From NCBI GenBank assembly GCA_032173965.1, contig CM063283.1:16596501-16660500 (forward strand): 64,000 nt of DNA, in the 5' to 3' direction. The stretch comes from Sitta carolinensis (lineage: Eukaryota > Chordata > Aves > Passeriformes > Sittidae). The notes beneath the pieces are model-generated. The model was not told the origin of the DNA. It saw only the letters and a list, made by a program, of their open reading frames with translations, and ran no database searches. The position numbers were made by a program, and so were the translations under genes. Below, piece after piece: positions 15,840 through 48,635 of the stretch; the first letter of the stretch is position 1, and each line of letters opens with the position of its first letter.

Positions 15840-15978
15840 CCTGGGAGTGTGTTAAAGGTTTGACGTTGGCACAAGGCCAGTGTCTCTATAACGATATACT
15901 GTTTCTGGTATCTTTTGTGAGATGTGACTAAAAACAGAGTAAAACAGTGTCTAATTTAGAAAGTAAAAGGAAAAAAAC

Positions 15979-15984
15979 TTTATT
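15979..15984 (-). promoter_or_regulatory. LTR polyadenylation signal (minus strand)
   Basis: TTTATT on the plus strand reads AATAAA on the minus strand. The site is kept in the related LTR at 30677-30682 and supports minus-strand orientation of both copies. Confidence 0.6.
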
Positions 15985-16583
15985 ACTTATAATAGGCAAA
16001 GAAGATACATATAGAAGAATATGGAAACTTTAAAAAAACACTCTTCCTCCCCCCCCACCAGTTCTCAACTTAACAAAATAAACTGAAAATTCTCCATTAC
16101 GTTACCACCTTTTAGATAATTAATCTTCAGTCTATTACCACTCTTCCGATAATCAGTACTCAGTTCGTTGAGGAGAGATAGGAGTCCTTCTTGCACTACA
16201 TCGTGGCCTCTTCTTCCATGTCCAGTGCTCTCACCACTGTGCATGGACCAGAGCTGCTTCTAGGGTTTCTCTTTTTTAAAGATGTTTTGGTTAGTTCCAA
16301 GAAACGACAGCTTCTCAAATTTTGGGGACACTTCTCATCTCTGTTCACACTACTGTCTACTCTTGGCTCTAAGTCAATGCCTCTTCCCAGATACAGTTTC
16401 TATGTTATAGAAAAAAAATGAGTCTGTCCAGGGTTATACAAAAGAGTCTAGCCAAAGCTACTCCATCATCTCCTCCCACCTAGGATTCTTTTCAGCGTTC
16501 TCTGACAATCTTCTACTTACACAAACTTTTATCATCTTTGCTCAGTTCTTTCTATCTGTCTTCTTCAAATTCAGGAGGATTAG

Positions 16584-16591
16584 TATTTATA
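16584..16591 (-). promoter_or_regulatory. Candidate LTR TATA box TATAAATA (minus strand)
   Basis: This TATA-like octamer lies in the U3 side of the long LTR. It is in the part missing from the short relative at 30547-31025. Promoter function is inferred only from its position. Confidence 0.4.
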
Positions 16592-19500
16592 AAGTTTCCA
16601 TCATTTACAAAAAGGGTTAAAATCTTGGGCTTTGTTTTCCCAGAACTCTCACGGTATTTTTGCTGCTGGGCACTCTTCTCGCGCCACCCCCCCATACTCC
16701 TTCGGCCGTACTGTTTAGTTGTTGATATCAAATTTCAAGGTGACGAAGATCACACACACGGTTTCTCAGTCTCCCTCCGGGGGGGGGAAGGGGGGAGGGA
16801 AAGGGAAAAGAAGGCTGTCTGCCACCCTTCTATCCTACAGGATTTTCCTCTCCCCCTCTGTGCCCGAGGTTCTGGCCCTACCTCACCCAGGCCGCATGGC
16901 TTCCCCTCCCCCGCCCAGCCAGCCGCTGGGCAGGGGAGATCCCTCCGTCCTCAGGGACCGGAACCAAGAGAGAGCTTTCCGGGCAGCCCTCTGCTTTGAA
17001 CCCCTTGTGTTCTCAGAGGCGGATCCTTGTCCTCAGTGGCCACACCAGGTACCAGTTTTTAAACCTGAGCACTCATTAGTTTGACCACTGAAGTTCAGAA
17101 AAAACTCATTTTTTTCCAAACTACGACAGAGTGTCTTTCTAAAGACACCTCTCCAGGAAGGTTGGGGCACTCTACCACCCATGCCTGCTTTGACAGCAAT
17201 GCTGCAAAAAGGTTTTTATTTAAAAAAAATGTTAGTTTGTGAAGTTAAACCTGCTTGAATACTTAATGCAGTGCATCAGTGAATGCACAGACAGGGTGAG
17301 GCAGGAAATGACAAGACAGCATTGGAGGTAGCTGAGTATTCCCTAACCATTTTACCAGGTGATAGCTATCAAAAAGTGATGTAGTTTTTAAATGTGATAG
17401 CACCTGACTTTTTTTACATTTATATAATGAGCTCTTAAGTGAATGGCTCCAAATCTATCTTGTATTTTTATATATAAAGTAGAATTATCTCTTTTGCTTG
17501 AGATTCACTTGTTGTCTTAATTCACTTTTAGGATAGAAAATGTTTTTCTTTTTCTTTTTCTAATGAAATACTGCATTCCTTCCTTATATAAAACAGCTCC
17601 TTTGGACCTCAACAGTTCTTCTGACCTCAGCAATGGTTGACATGCTTATTCAGAAATTCATATGGGGAAAAAGTACTTTTGAATAGACAAATATGCAGTG
17701 CTGGCCTTTGGAAATAAAAATCTTCCAAATCTAACTCTTCCAGTTGGTATAAAGTATTTTTGTGATGCTTTGTCCTCTCTGTTGATGAGAATCTGAAATG
17801 TGATTGTGTGATGTGCCTCTGGATCTTAGAACAGGACCTCTCTGTAAATCTCCCCAAACTTGATCCATTTGAGATAGAAGCTGAATAACTGATTGTGATT
17901 TTTTAATGTTCCTTTTTAAAAGATGTATTGCTTTTTATTGTGAATCATTTGTCCTACAAAAAAAATCAAATTCTTTTTTGTAAAAAAGTACTAAATAAGG
18001 TATCCAATATACTCAAAATCTATTAGAACTGCTTATGAGTAGCTCCTTATTTGGTACATTTTTTGATGAAGTGTATCACAGCTGTGGATAAATACGAAAC
18101 CAGTAGTCAAATAGGATAAATATTCAATCAGTAATCAGTTATGATGTTTTCCTCTGAGTAGCATCTTCTAAACTCTCAAATATTGGGATGCAGTTTTATG
18201 CATTGTGAAGTTGTATGAGTAGGCTAGTAAAACTATTTTCCTAGGATGGCTCTTTAAATGATTGAGAGATTTTTTTTCAGGATTTTAATGGTTTATTCTT
18301 TTTTATGTATGCTTTTCTTTTATTAAATCTGGTGAACTGCAGAAACGGCAGCATTTCAAGCCTGAGGGGTTTAATATAAACCATAAAAAGACTAGTCAAA
18401 ATCTTGTCTGCTTTTGTGATGTCATTGGAGTGCCCTGTGTATTTTGATTATAGCTATTTACATTAGTCCAAATATTTATATAATGCACAAGGGAAAGTAT
18501 GAGGTGCTAAGTAGAGAATTATCATTTTCTTTATAAGAGGTGTTCATTTCTATGAGCAGATGATGTCTGCGTGTTTTTAGGGAAACGACTTTCAAGCTTC
18601 CAAGTTTTTTAGGAAAACATGCATAGCATAATATACCAAGGAGAAACATTTGCTCTTTCCTTTTAATTCACTCATCTTGTACTTGTCAGCTGGTCTTAAA
18701 TGTAGAACAGAACCAAAAGAAGCATCTATAATTGCTGTGTTAATTCCTCTCTGTGAATTAGAGTGAGCTTCCCCATCTTAAGAGTAGTCCAGACATATTT
18801 CTGAAAGAGGAGTCAAAACAGTGGTTTTAGCTCCTTAGCTAAAAAAAACCCACCTGTGGCTCTGGTGGGCCAGTCAGCATGCCCAGGGAGCAGAGCACAA
18901 GTCAGAGGCTCTTGTGAAGTGTTAAATTCACACCTGATAAGAAGGTGAGTTGCAATGTTTTAAAATCAAGGTAATCAATAAACAAATGTCTCTAAAAAAC
19001 CCCTGCACGTTATTCAGTATTTTAGAGCTTAGGGTTTTTAAATTTCCTTTCTTCTTTTGTTGTCATGACCTCAAATTGCACTGTTTAGGCAATTATTTCA
19101 GCTCTATCATAGACCAGAAAACAAATTCCCATAGTGGCAAAGTGGCAACGAAAGTACATTTAAAAAAAAAAAAAATCATTTGTAGGTCAGAAGGGAATAG
19201 AAAACACAATAGCAGTGCAAACTATGTCCTACTGGTAGTCCTTGCTTAGGACAGCTGGGTCTTCCATTCCCTTCAAACGTGTTTTTGATTACAAGTGCTT
19301 GCCTTTTGTTTTCTGCATGCCCAGACACATGTCTGAGCCTTGAATTGTGGTCTTAATACAGCCATACACTCTTGAATTCAAATGTCCATTTGAAAATAAA
19401 GCAATAAAGGAGTGAAGTACATCAATAACTGTGTCAGAAAAATAGGAATTAGATGATTGTTGGTGGATGATTTCATGATTTTGATGACTTGTTGTATAGA

Positions 19501-30541: not shown

Positions 30542-30546
30542 CCATG

Positions 30547-31025
30547 TGTTAAAGGTTTGACGTTGGTACAAGGCTAGTGTCTTTATAACGATATATTGTC
30601 CCTGGTATCTGTTGTGAGATGTGACTAAAAACAGAGTAAAACCGTGTTTAATTTAGAAAGCAAAAGGAAAAAAAATTTTATTATTTATAATAGGCAAAGA
30701 AGACACATACAGAAGAACATGGAAACTTTAAAAAAACACTCTTCTTTTCTCTCCACTAGTTTTCAACTTAATAAAACAAACTGAAAATTCTCTATCACGT
30801 TACTACTTTTTAGATAATTAATCTTTAGTTTATTACTATCTTTCTGATAATTAGTACTCAGTTTGTTGAGGAGAGATAGGAGTTTTTCTTGTACTATATT
30901 GTGGCCTTTTCTTCTATGTCTAGTGCTTTCACTACTGTGTATGGACTAGAGCTGTTTTTAGGGTTTTTCTTTTTAAAGATGTTTTGGTTAGTTCTAAGAA
31001 ACGACAGTTTCTCAATTTTGGGACA
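30547..31025 (-). mobile_element. Short solo LTR related to the 15.85 kb LTR, with TSD
   Basis: This 479-bp element runs from TGTTAAAGG to GGGACA on the plus strand and is flanked by CCATG at 30542-30546 and 31026-31030. It aligns end to end with 15850-16330, and the AATAAA on the minus strand is kept (plus-strand 30677-30682). By eye, nearly all differences from the long copy are C in the long copy and T here. I count about 43 such sites, about 9 in the reverse direction, two transversions and no G/A differences. Relative to the long LTR it lacks 798 bp of U3 including the TATA-like site. The different TSD shows it is a separate insertion, not the partner LTR of one provirus. Confidence 0.85.
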
Positions 31026-32327
31026 CCATGCTGAGGGCAGGCAGGAGCAAAAAAAAAATCATGTTTCAAAGTTTACTTTAATGATGAACCTCTAAAATAC
31101 ATAATTGTATTTTATTTGGTGTTGACACAGATATACTCCATCCAACTTTTGCACTCTCCTCTAAGGAGCATTTCTCCTTAGCACTTGGGAAATTTGTCCT
31201 TCTTGCTCACCTCTTCTCCCAAGTTCTCAAGTTGATATGTGAGTAAATTTTGTGAGGATGAACATGAGATTGCTTTCCTTAGGGACTCAGTACAACACTG
31301 TATGTTCCCTTCTAACTTTGGGATGAAAAGGGTTTTATTTATGTAGGTAATTTTTCATAATAGATAAACAAATCAAATCAATCCCAATGAAATTTCTAAG
31401 GGCAGTGAGTGGAACCACTTAATTCAGCCTGAATTTCACTAAAGAAGTGAGTTGCAAAACCCGGTAGGGCACTTTTGTTGGAATTATCCCTCCAGTGTTC
31501 TTCACACACTTCAGATGCTGTGATTTCAGAGGGAAAGAATGATTACTCAAAGGGTCCCTTCTGTAAATATGTTTTGTTCGGGAAAAAATAATCCAAGCCA
31601 GGGAAAAACCCTTCAGTGGAGAGAAGATAGTTACGGCAGGACATTCTTTTTTTTTCTTCAACCCTGCTTCATTGGCTTATAGAACTTTCTATCCTTTTTA
31701 TGAAATAGATCTATTTTTATTGCATAGAATATACTTAACTGTGTGAAATTTGCAGAAATCCAATATTTTATGCTCTTAGCTTCCTCCATAGTCTTTTTCT
31801 TTAACTAGCTTTCACTGAGTTAAAATATTAGTATGCAAGGCTTTGAAGCTAAAGAAGTAGAGAATTTTGGAAAAAAGTTTATGTACCTCTGAAGACACTG
31901 GAGACACTGAGGATATGTATTGAATAATCACGTTGATAGGCACAAGAAAATGGAAGGTAAAGGTCCTGAGCTGTAGTGGGATTGATTTTTAACAGGCACA
32001 AATAATCTCTAATTGTGCCACTAACATAAACAAATAAAGTGCTGTACTACCACATTTTTTCACAAAGAAATCTCTTTTGCAAGAAAAAACGTCTAAAATA
32101 AAAGCTAAACTCTAATTTTGCTTTCTGATGCCTAACAAAACTACTTATCCCATCAATAACTGCCTGATAAACAGATCTACAAAAGGCATATTAAAAAGCA
32201 AATCTTCCTGCAAGCTACTTTAATTTTGTCACAGCACTTATCGTTTAATTTTAGTGGTAATTAAACCCCTTCTCTAGAACATCTGAACAGAAACGGCACG
32301 TTCTTAACAGTTTCTTGAAACGTGTAC

Positions 32328-46444: not shown

Positions 46445-46516
46445 AGCTTGACATTGGAGCTTTTAGGTTGGACTTGATGATCTCAGAGGTATTTTCCAAC
46501 CTAAGTGATTCTGTGC
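46445..46516 (+). mobile_element. CR1 LINE 3'-end fragment
   Basis: GGTTGGACTTGATGATCTCA, TTTTCCAACCTAAGTGATTC and TGTG match the last ~60 bp of CR1 on the plus strand, including the start of the terminal ATTCTGTG repeat. Confidence 0.85.
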
Positions 46517-48101
46517 TTTTCTGGTAACTGTAACATTCACTTGGCATGGGAGTTCAGTCTGACAAATCTTCTATTCCTCATTTTCCTTCAGCTTCTATCT
46601 CTTCAAAAGTGTTGATATTGAGCCATGGCATTTGGGATTAATGACAGATGAAGTGTTTAAGTGTCTCTGAAAATGAAAATCACAGAAAACATCTGAAGGG
46701 CTGGTAATTTTTGGAAGTATGACCATTAATCATGATGTTCTCATTCTCAAAGGTGGATATTTAGGAAAACCATTTACAAAAAAAAACCCAAAACGGCTCT
46801 TATCACAGTTAGAAATATTTGAACTACAAAGAATAGGTTGCTGGTCTGAGCGAAGTTTTAAGAGGGTAATAAGCCTATCCCTATAATAGCAGCACATAAG
46901 CCATCCAAGTTTAGTTGTGAAACAATTTACCAGCCTACTAACAATCTGTATTTCCAAAAATCCCACTTGATGTGAGGGCAGCTAGATGCAGTACAGTGAG
47001 AGGAGTTGAAGTAACTTTGAGATTTACCCATTTGGACCTAAAATGTAGGCCATATATGCTAGATTCCTAAAAATAACTTTAATATCTGCATTAGACTAGT
47101 TGTCAGACTGTGTTCAGCCTCACAGCCTGCTATGTTTCAACATGACTTGAATAAGCTTTTAGATTATGGCTTTAATCCCAGAGATTTTGAAGTAGCACCA
47201 GTGTGTCTTTTAAAACACATGGGTATGAAGCAGCTGTTGAAAATAGAATACCATGGATGTATAGACTCCTCTGTTATATATATATAGGACTTGCTACCAC
47301 TTTTCCTTGAAAATGCATTTCTGCAATGAGCTGGTAGAAGAAACATGAATTGATACAAGGCGTGGCTTAAATCAACTGTGCAGTAAAGAGAGTGACTAAA
47401 GAGTGGGCCCAACTGCCTATAGATTAGCTTCCAATAATCTTCAATATATCCTTACCACCTACTCTTCAGAGTATGGCTTTTGCATGTAAGAGCCACATAT
47501 ACAAGTGGAGTGCAAGGTTGATACTGGCCTGGGGAAAGGAGTTCAACTGGTATATGCTTTGTATCTCTTAGGCTAAGCCTGAAAGCATGCAGGCTCAGGT
47601 CCACATTCCCAATGAGACACACAAGAAATCATGGCATTAATAAATTCAGAGTCAAATTTGTCAGAAAATAAAATGTAGGAACATGAATGTTTGAGTAGGT
47701 TTGGACCTGCTTGCTTTCTGTTTTTCTTCCCTGTCCATCTTTTGTTATGACTAGACTCCACACACTAGATGAAAATCTTGCATTTATTATTAGTGTCTTT
47801 AGATTTATGTGTATTAATAAAAAGGGGCTCTTGACTTAATAGCTCAGTAGAGAATAAAGTATTGCTGTTACTCCTGGAGTGAGTCAGAGCAATGGCAAGT
47901 GCCTGCTGCTTTTGGGGAAAAAAACCCAAAAAACAAACCAAAAAAAAAACAAACCCAGTTTCCAGGGAGACTTCATTATCTTGGAGGTCCCACCCACAGT
48001 GGATCATCAAGAGCTATCAGCAGATTCTGTCTTGCTCTAGCTACTGGTGGTTGCCCACACAAGGAGATGGCATTATTGTGCCTGGAAGGAGAATTCCATG
48101 A
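46517..48101. other. Unique AT-rich non-coding stretch
   Basis: No gene was recognised. An A-rich AAAC/AAAAC tract lies at about 47919-47956, just before the CR1 copy. The open frames are under 85 codons. Confidence 0.5.
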
Positions 48102-48635
48102 TCGCAGAATCACAGAATGAACTAGGTTGGAAAAGACTTTTGAGATCATAAAGTCCAACCTATGACCTAACACCTCCTCATCAACTGAAGCATAGCACAG
48201 TGCCACATCCAGTCTTTTTTTAAACAGCTCCAGGGGTGGTGACTCCACCACCTCCCTGGGCAGATGATTCCACTGCCCAATCACTCTTTCAGTGAAGAAT
48301 TTTTTTCCTGATGTCTAACCTAAACTTCCCCTGGTGCAGCTTAAGGCTGTGGCCTCTCATTCTTTCAGTGGTTCCCTGGGAGAAGAGACCGACCCCCCCC
48401 CCCAGCTACAACCACCTTTCAGGTAATTGTAGAGTGATAAGGTCTCCCCTGAGCCTCCTTCTCTCCAGAATAAACAACCCCAGCTCCCTCAACCATTCTT
48501 CATAGGGCTTGTGTTCCAAGCCCTTCACCAGCCTTGTTGCCCTCCTCTGGACACATTTGAGCATCTCAACATCATCTAAATTGAGGGGCCCAGAACTGGA
48601 CATAGCACTTAAGGTGTGATCATTCTTTTCCATTC
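48102..48635 (-). mobile_element. CR1 LINE fragment (C-terminal ORF2 and 3' end)
   Basis: This is a 5'-truncated CR1 of about 535 bp on the minus strand. Its 3' end lies at the left, where the minus strand reads ATTCTGTGATTCTGCGATCA. The minus strand also encodes two recognisable pieces of the ORF2 C-terminus. One is [13 protein letters not shown] followed by L-R-E-L-G-L-F, then [11 protein letters not shown] (48406-48560). The other is [18 protein letters not shown] (48210-48270). A C run at about 48390-48402 breaks the frame between them. It is much less diverged than the CR1 at 36.6 kb, so it inserted later. It is a transposon fossil, not a host gene. Confidence 0.95.

Follow-up and report, generated by a model that had tools for sequence, protein, structure and literature searches.

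Strand-specific transitions in the LTRs of a non-autonomous bird retroelement point to cytosine deamination during reverse transcription

Editing of LTR elements has been described in birds, as the original prediction for the present locus rightly stated. According to passages of PMC6523648 and PMC6497032, APOBEC-type G-to-A changes were found in bird LTR elements (Knisbacher and Levanon 2016), most strongly in the zebra finch and in oscine passerines. For HIV-1, part of PMC4488724 describes gradients of APOBEC3G (A3G) editing that are set by single-strand exposure, the load rising away from the polypurine tract. The sites favoured by A3G are of the CC type (PMC5391955, in part), and the A3 enzymes are described in the abstract of PMC5399452 as specific to eutherian mammals. 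Avian retroviral LTRs are in addition known for A-to-G hypermutation, which was ascribed to ADAR (Felder 1994, Hajjar and Linial 1995; as related in passages of PMC12925331 and PMC8586724), and HIV-1 proviruses with asymmetric LTRs are treated in part of PMC9278108.

The family described here, encountered as two insertions in a 64,000-nucleotide stretch of the Sitta carolinensis genome (hereafter the window), can be set beside each of these systems. Like the bird LTR elements of those partial accounts it carries G-to-A changes, and to what they relate it adds evidence on direction from the 5' and 3' LTRs of single proviruses, together with plus-strand C-to-T changes in 5' LTRs. G-to-A change traceable to minus-strand cDNA, and gradients of the kind that single-strand exposure leaves, are likewise features of HIV-1 APOBEC3G (PMC4488724, in part); in contrast to A3G, the bird family is edited at GC as readily as at CC. 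With the ADAR-type avian LTRs, as far as the passages on them go, the family has in common a bird retroviral U3, purine transitions on one strand and the involvement of up to about half of the sites. In those LTRs, however, the change is made in RNA and its direction is opposite. Asymmetric HIV-1 LTRs also differ from the start through reverse-transcription events, but there the asymmetry is mostly 3'-LTR deletion, whereas in the bird family it consists of strand-specific base changes (PMC9278108, in part).

Table 1. Coordinates of the two LTR insertions in the window, with their target duplications, and of the deaminase-like exons elsewhere in the same genome
Feature	Position	Strand	Remarks
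Short-form LTR, 479 bp	30547..31025	-	sense TGTCCC...TTAACA; G-to-A editing rank 3/41 copies
CCATG, left 5-bp target duplication of short LTR	30542..30546	.	
CCATG, right 5-bp target duplication of short LTR	31026..31030	.	
Complete solo LTR, 1,279 bp (long copy)	15850..17128	-	sense TGTCGTAG...TTAACA
Long-LTR segment homologous to short LTR, 481 bp	15850..16330	-	
GAGTG, left target duplication of long LTR	15845..15849	.	
GAGTG, right target duplication of long LTR	17129..17133	.	
AID/APOBEC-family exon cluster	C1:72974808-73022566 (L122-L125, L127, L128)		

In an alignment that tolerates transitions (479/481 bp), the sense (minus) strand of the two window LTRs shows 43 sites with G in the long and A in the short copy, 9 sites with the reverse and no C/T difference, next to 4 gap columns and 3 transversions; these number two or three depending on where one gap is placed. 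The counts originally given (about 43, about 9, two transversions and no G/A difference on the opposite strand) were thus reproduced for the transitions. A default alignment yielded 41 and 8 C/T differences by direction on the plus strand with 2 transversions, BLAST gave 51 C/T and 0 A/G on that strand with 4 transversions, and one MAFFT run, which aligned the ends differently, produced a single C/T column. On the sense strand 52 of 245 purine columns differ and none of 230 pyrimidine columns (Fisher p 6e-17); the nine reverse-direction sites taken alone stand at 9 vs 0. The sole other repeat pair in a self-comparison of the window at E 1e-3 consists of CR1-like LINE 3' ends, which are typical of bird genomes. 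These two arms, 55 bp each and in opposite orientation (46464-46518 and 48108-48162), differ by 0 A/G, 3 C/T and 5 transversions, numbers too small for a control.

Copies of the element were sought in the genome that contains the window (252 contigs with 1.03 Gb in all), where a first look gave 1,925 LTR candidates. Homology of the long copy to the fetched copies continues for 798 bp beyond the segment shared with the short one. Its end was consequently moved from 16330 to the position given in Table 1, and its reading as a 3' LTR with an internal region on the right was rejected, the rightward sequence being further LTR. A full LTR of 1.26-1.38 kb was present in 37 of 38 fetched loci examined, and perfect 5-bp duplications flanked 25 of 38 LTR loci and 30 of 39 provirus pairs. 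At its sense 5' end the short form is missing some 800 bp of U3; despite this, the window copy keeps its target duplications and the TGTCCC start. This form is not unique: in L063, which is the copy also fetched as L008 and the one exception among the 38 loci, homology ends at approximately the same internal boundary.

The TG...CA ends and the constant length of the target duplication fit an ERV-like LTR retroelement; 5-bp duplications are linked to ERVL. One provirus (L047) has the plan 5' LTR, 205-bp internal region, 3' LTR, with GATAA flanking both sides. Its interior starts with TTTGGTTCCCTGACCGGGAA, a primer-binding-site-like stretch which we take to match the 3' end of tRNA-Glu, and ends in a purine-rich tract. 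An interior bounded in this way fits a non-autonomous LTR retroelement, and at 205 bp it is too short for pol. Being small and non-coding, the element must, we infer, have borrowed its enzymes. With this region as query, a first look at the genome gave 103 candidates; 40 of them were scored matches, each spanning all 205 bp. A protein search with LTR reading frames scored none of 124 candidates, Pfam returned nothing above cut-off for seven window ORFs, Rfam had no match to the window or to L047, a tRNA search of L047 found none, and pattern scans of viral contigs gave no match. Matches over about 19-32 bases in six prokaryotic contigs were judged to be chance. The explanation favoured below takes the two elements of the window to be solo LTRs, inserted copies of a young non-autonomous bird LTR retroelement; the retroelement is called young, without a date, because the pair is nearly free of ordinary differences and the duplications are intact.

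On the pair alone, composition and likelihood leaned towards G-to-A, but the outcome hung on priors, and ADAR was compatible with the contexts too; this polarity is superseded by comparison with copies from the same genome. Thirty-nine copies of the 479-bp part, fetched as best matches to the short copy, were analysed with the two window copies (41 in all). The sample is biased, and rates derived from it are not family averages, because the copies are best matches to a heavily edited sequence. Compared with either window copy, those fetched show 24-53 A/G differences, 0-5 C/T differences and 0-8 transversions. Across all 41, 130 columns vary as A/G and 11 as C/T, and the invariant columns hold 1 G, compared with 111 A, 135 T and 72 C. 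The more A residues a copy has at the A/G-variable columns, the greater is its mean distance to the other copies (rho 0.85); the same correlation reaches rho 0.94 in 40 full-length LTRs, two of which belong to one provirus. A-rich copies lie farthest from the rest, as independent derived hits predict, and hence the change is G-to-A. Both window LTRs being on the minus strand, this upholds the original assignment of G-to-A to the retroviral sense strand.

Hyperediting of the element RNA by ADAR would have worked the other way round, A-to-G changes on the sense strand making the long copy G-rich and leaving the short copy near the original state. A-to-G change in avian retroviral U3 is documented (PMC12925331 and PMC8586724, in part), and changed sites of the pair are enriched where the A of the short copy precedes G (16/37 vs 27/144) or follows A or T (36/127 vs 7/54). 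However, the outliers in both correlations are A-rich and not G-rich copies, the pair likelihood is about 5-20 nats higher for G-to-A, the figure varying with the prior, and the RNA fold is unremarkable (z 0.38 and -0.46).

Triplet comparison assigned 21.0 G-to-A, 1.9 A-to-G, 0.2 C-to-T and 0.0 T-to-C changes to the short copy. Of the 40 full LTRs compared, the long LTR belongs to the less edited ones. In lightly edited copies A-to-G exceeds G-to-A in this test (L046, for example, has 2.3 G-to-A vs 11.4 A-to-G), which we read as both comparison copies having been edited at one hot site. At all nine reverse-direction sites G is commoner in the other copies, so that these, as proposed earlier, are most simply edits in the long copy. 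Of the 43 forward sites, 30 have G as the commoner base; at none is A present in all 39 other copies, and at one it is present in no other copy. Most of these sites have therefore been hit repeatedly in different copies and are not peculiar to the short one. The pair had been put forward as a candidate edited insertion; editing is supported, but the pair is not special, as editing runs throughout the copies examined. Nor are C/T changes absent from the family, since the median pair among the 40 full LTRs shows 16 of them, next to 87 A/G and 12 transversions.

The pairwise distances are reproduced by a model that gives each copy and each site a rate of its own (observed mean 80.5, sd 23.2; model 78.6, 22.1). 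The distances thus fit independent hits in each copy and not old subfamily markers shared by many copies, the outcome that the original prediction had named as contrary to it. A related account, in which such markers descend from a few edited founders, draws on two observations. Transversions to the long copy number 0 in 12 of the 39 fetched copies and 2-8 in the rest, which points to a few subfamilies, and certain pairs resemble each other a little more closely than they should under the independence model. Yet the 12 transversion-free copies still differ from the long copy by 25-53 A/G and 0-1 C/T, the distribution of pairwise distances is that of independent hits, and the two LTRs of a single provirus differ in the same manner. 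We consider founder markers very improbable, though marginally less so than the other two alternatives weighed here. The edited fraction at 357 G-type columns ranges from 0.05 to 0.46 per LTR, with a median of 0.16, and the mean A fraction at these columns depends on the following base (GG 0.27, GC 0.23, GA 0.13, GT 0.06).

LTR pairs of single proviruses were obtained for 39 of the 40 internal matches (L083 gave none), the proviruses being best matches to one internal region, so that their rates, too, do not stand for the family average. L092 and L115, which carry many transversions, were set aside, and 37 pairs with 51 transversions in total were analysed; L119 and L120 are not independent, because they overlap and share an LTR. 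At A/G differences the 5' LTR has G and the 3' LTR A in 333 cases vs 59 of the reverse, with an A excess in the 3' LTR of 27 of the 37 pairs, the opposite in 6 and ties in 4. At C/T differences the 5' LTR has T and the 3' LTR C in 407 cases vs 26, with a T excess in the 5' LTR of 27 pairs, the opposite in none and ties in 10. When L092 and L115 are put back, the counts become 409 vs 169 (A/G) and 486 vs 96 (C/T). Three proviruses (L107, L081 and L086) contribute much of the total, and the direction stays when they are removed (201 vs 45 and 277 vs 23). L107, L084 and L116 are cases of extreme plus-strand editing, with 125, 43 and 48 T-for-C changes in their 5' LTRs and no transversions; the LTRs of L107 differ at 126 C/T sites over 1,026 aligned columns. 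The original prediction, which invoked the minus strand only, was right as to G-to-A, but a second, plus-strand phase has to be added, which brings C-to-T into the 5' LTRs. Editing of the RNA by ADAR would give a provirus two identical LTRs, whereas hundreds of strand- and LTR-specific transitions were observed; as the main process ADAR is refuted by this comparison, and we regard it as extremely unlikely for the window pair as well.

The two kinds of change are distributed along the LTR in opposite gradients. Counted by tenths of the LTR, C-to-T in 5' LTRs declines towards U5, with 0.096 in the tenth at the U3 end and 0.001 in that at the U5 end (rho -0.87). G-to-A in 3' LTRs increases in the same direction, with 0.010 in the first tenth and 0.107 in the last (rho 0.76), an uneven rise that lies mostly in the last tenth. 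The base before the edited C matters on both strands: plus-strand rates are 0.068 after C, 0.057 after G, 0.041 after T and 0.017 after A (p 7e-17), and minus-strand rates 0.040, 0.041, 0.017 and 0.011, respectively (p 2e-17). The preferred target in cDNA is C after C or G, and the order CC ~ GC > TC > AC is common to both strands, which makes one enzyme the simplest reading. Dinucleotide context, a check suggested with the original prediction, is thus non-random in the pair, in the family and in the proviruses.

Ordinary decay after insertion, be it methyl-CpG deamination or a strand asymmetry linked to transcription or replication, was weighed as another source of such transitions. In 5' LTRs C-to-T is indeed more frequent at CpG (76/921) than elsewhere (331/7,942), and because of this some ordinary CpG decay is probably included in the counts. 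Decay does not, however, account for 0 changed pyrimidine columns out of 230 in the pair, nor for C-to-T loads that do not follow G-to-A loads among LTRs (rho 0.01). The LTRs of one insertion share their orientation and start about 1.5 kb from each other, yet each bears its marks on a different strand, and the gradients are opposed. Damage linked to transcription would be expected to peak downstream of the promoter, whereas C-to-T in 5' LTRs peaks at the U3 end. As the source of the pattern, ordinary decay appears to us highly improbable.

Taken as a whole, the evidence very probably means that the copies were edited during reverse transcription by an AID/APOBEC-type cytosine deaminase specific for single strands. 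The original proposal of an APOBEC-type deaminase acting on cDNA is supported by direction, independence and context, the assignment to that enzyme class being our inference. An enzyme that prefers C after C or G would deaminate minus-strand cDNA and so give G-to-A on the sense strand. Plus-strand strong-stop DNA copies the LTR and then jumps to the other end, which would leave two stretches single-stranded. The plus-strand LTR, copied from the primer-binding site in the direction U5 to U3, and hence last at U3, would fix C-to-T in the 5' LTR. For the minus-strand LTR that has been displaced, recopying would start at U3 and proceed towards U5, and its G-to-A would become fixed in the 3' LTR. 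For single-strand deamination, opposite gradients in the 5' and 3' LTRs are what the textbook order of reverse transcription predicts. The short LTR of the window would be a heavily minus-strand-edited copy and the long LTR a lightly edited one. Rare C-to-T changes in the HIV 5' U3 were reportedly seen by Yu et al. in 2004.

Editing of GC as often as CC fits, to our knowledge, no known APOBEC motif. The context does not fit AID as the editor either: AC is the coldest context, though GC is warm, and the WRC motif (sense GYW) is not enriched at edited positions of the short copy (9/43 vs 15/55 unedited, p 0.49). Eight APOBEC_N matches were found in the same genome, comprising two pieces of one gene on contig C31 and the cluster on contig C1 (Table 1). 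Three exons of the cluster, at 72.975 Mb, are presumably AID-like by their sequence. Those at 72.985, 73.007 and 73.022 Mb have the H-x-E and PC-x-x-C residues and lie within 50 kb of the AID-like gene. The 72.985-Mb exon has APOBEC-1 as best PDB match (5e-29) and APOBEC4_like and APOBEC1 as top Pfam families. For the other two the top Pfam family is SNAD4 and not APOBEC1 (APOBEC1 7e-22 and 2.5e-19), and the 73.022-Mb exon, the only one of these tried against PDB, again matches APOBEC-1 best (8.5e-18). By their sequences, genes of this cluster are perhaps candidate editors of the LTR family. That one or more deaminases, perhaps from the cluster, edit both strands and thereby write an LTR-specific record of strand transfer into germline proviruses is a proposal for which we see about even chances. 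The 73.007- and 73.022-Mb copies form a recent duplication, 96.5% identical in DNA along 2.9 kb; between their exons 22 of 131 residues are different, most of which fall into two short blocks. Positive selection between these exons (22 amino-acid vs 5 silent changes in 131 codons) is unsupported, as pN is 0.098 and pS 0.128 after correction for sites.

Editing of bird LTRs is known as such. None of the literature matches listed described germline proviruses whose 5' and 3' LTRs are edited on opposite strands, in a comparison of titles and abstract openings whose coverage leaves out most subscription journals; the marking of the two LTRs on opposite strands accordingly looks new, if tentatively. 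On this reading the insertions, germline events in animals that do not belong to the groups with A3 genes, are a footprint of reverse-transcription intermediates; the context, CC and GC but not AC, is a lead for finding the responsible bird deaminase. If the reading is true, the order of DNA synthesis is legible in genomes, and dating such insertions by LTR divergence is invalid. How badly LTR-LTR divergence, a widely used clock for insertions, can be inflated in such families is illustrated by L107, whose many C/T differences come without a transversion. Repeat libraries may split one edited family into spurious subfamilies. In estrildid finches, APOBEC modification was speculated to raise LTR subfamily diversity (PMC6523648, in part).

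Two arrangements of the family in this genome may be added. A provirus (C1:16664409-16665894; L050, L084) starts approximately 4 kb past the right end of the window. In L119 and L120 (C8:56281954-56286619) the internal regions lie 1.46 kb apart in the same orientation, which suggests a tandem LTR-internal-LTR-internal-LTR array.
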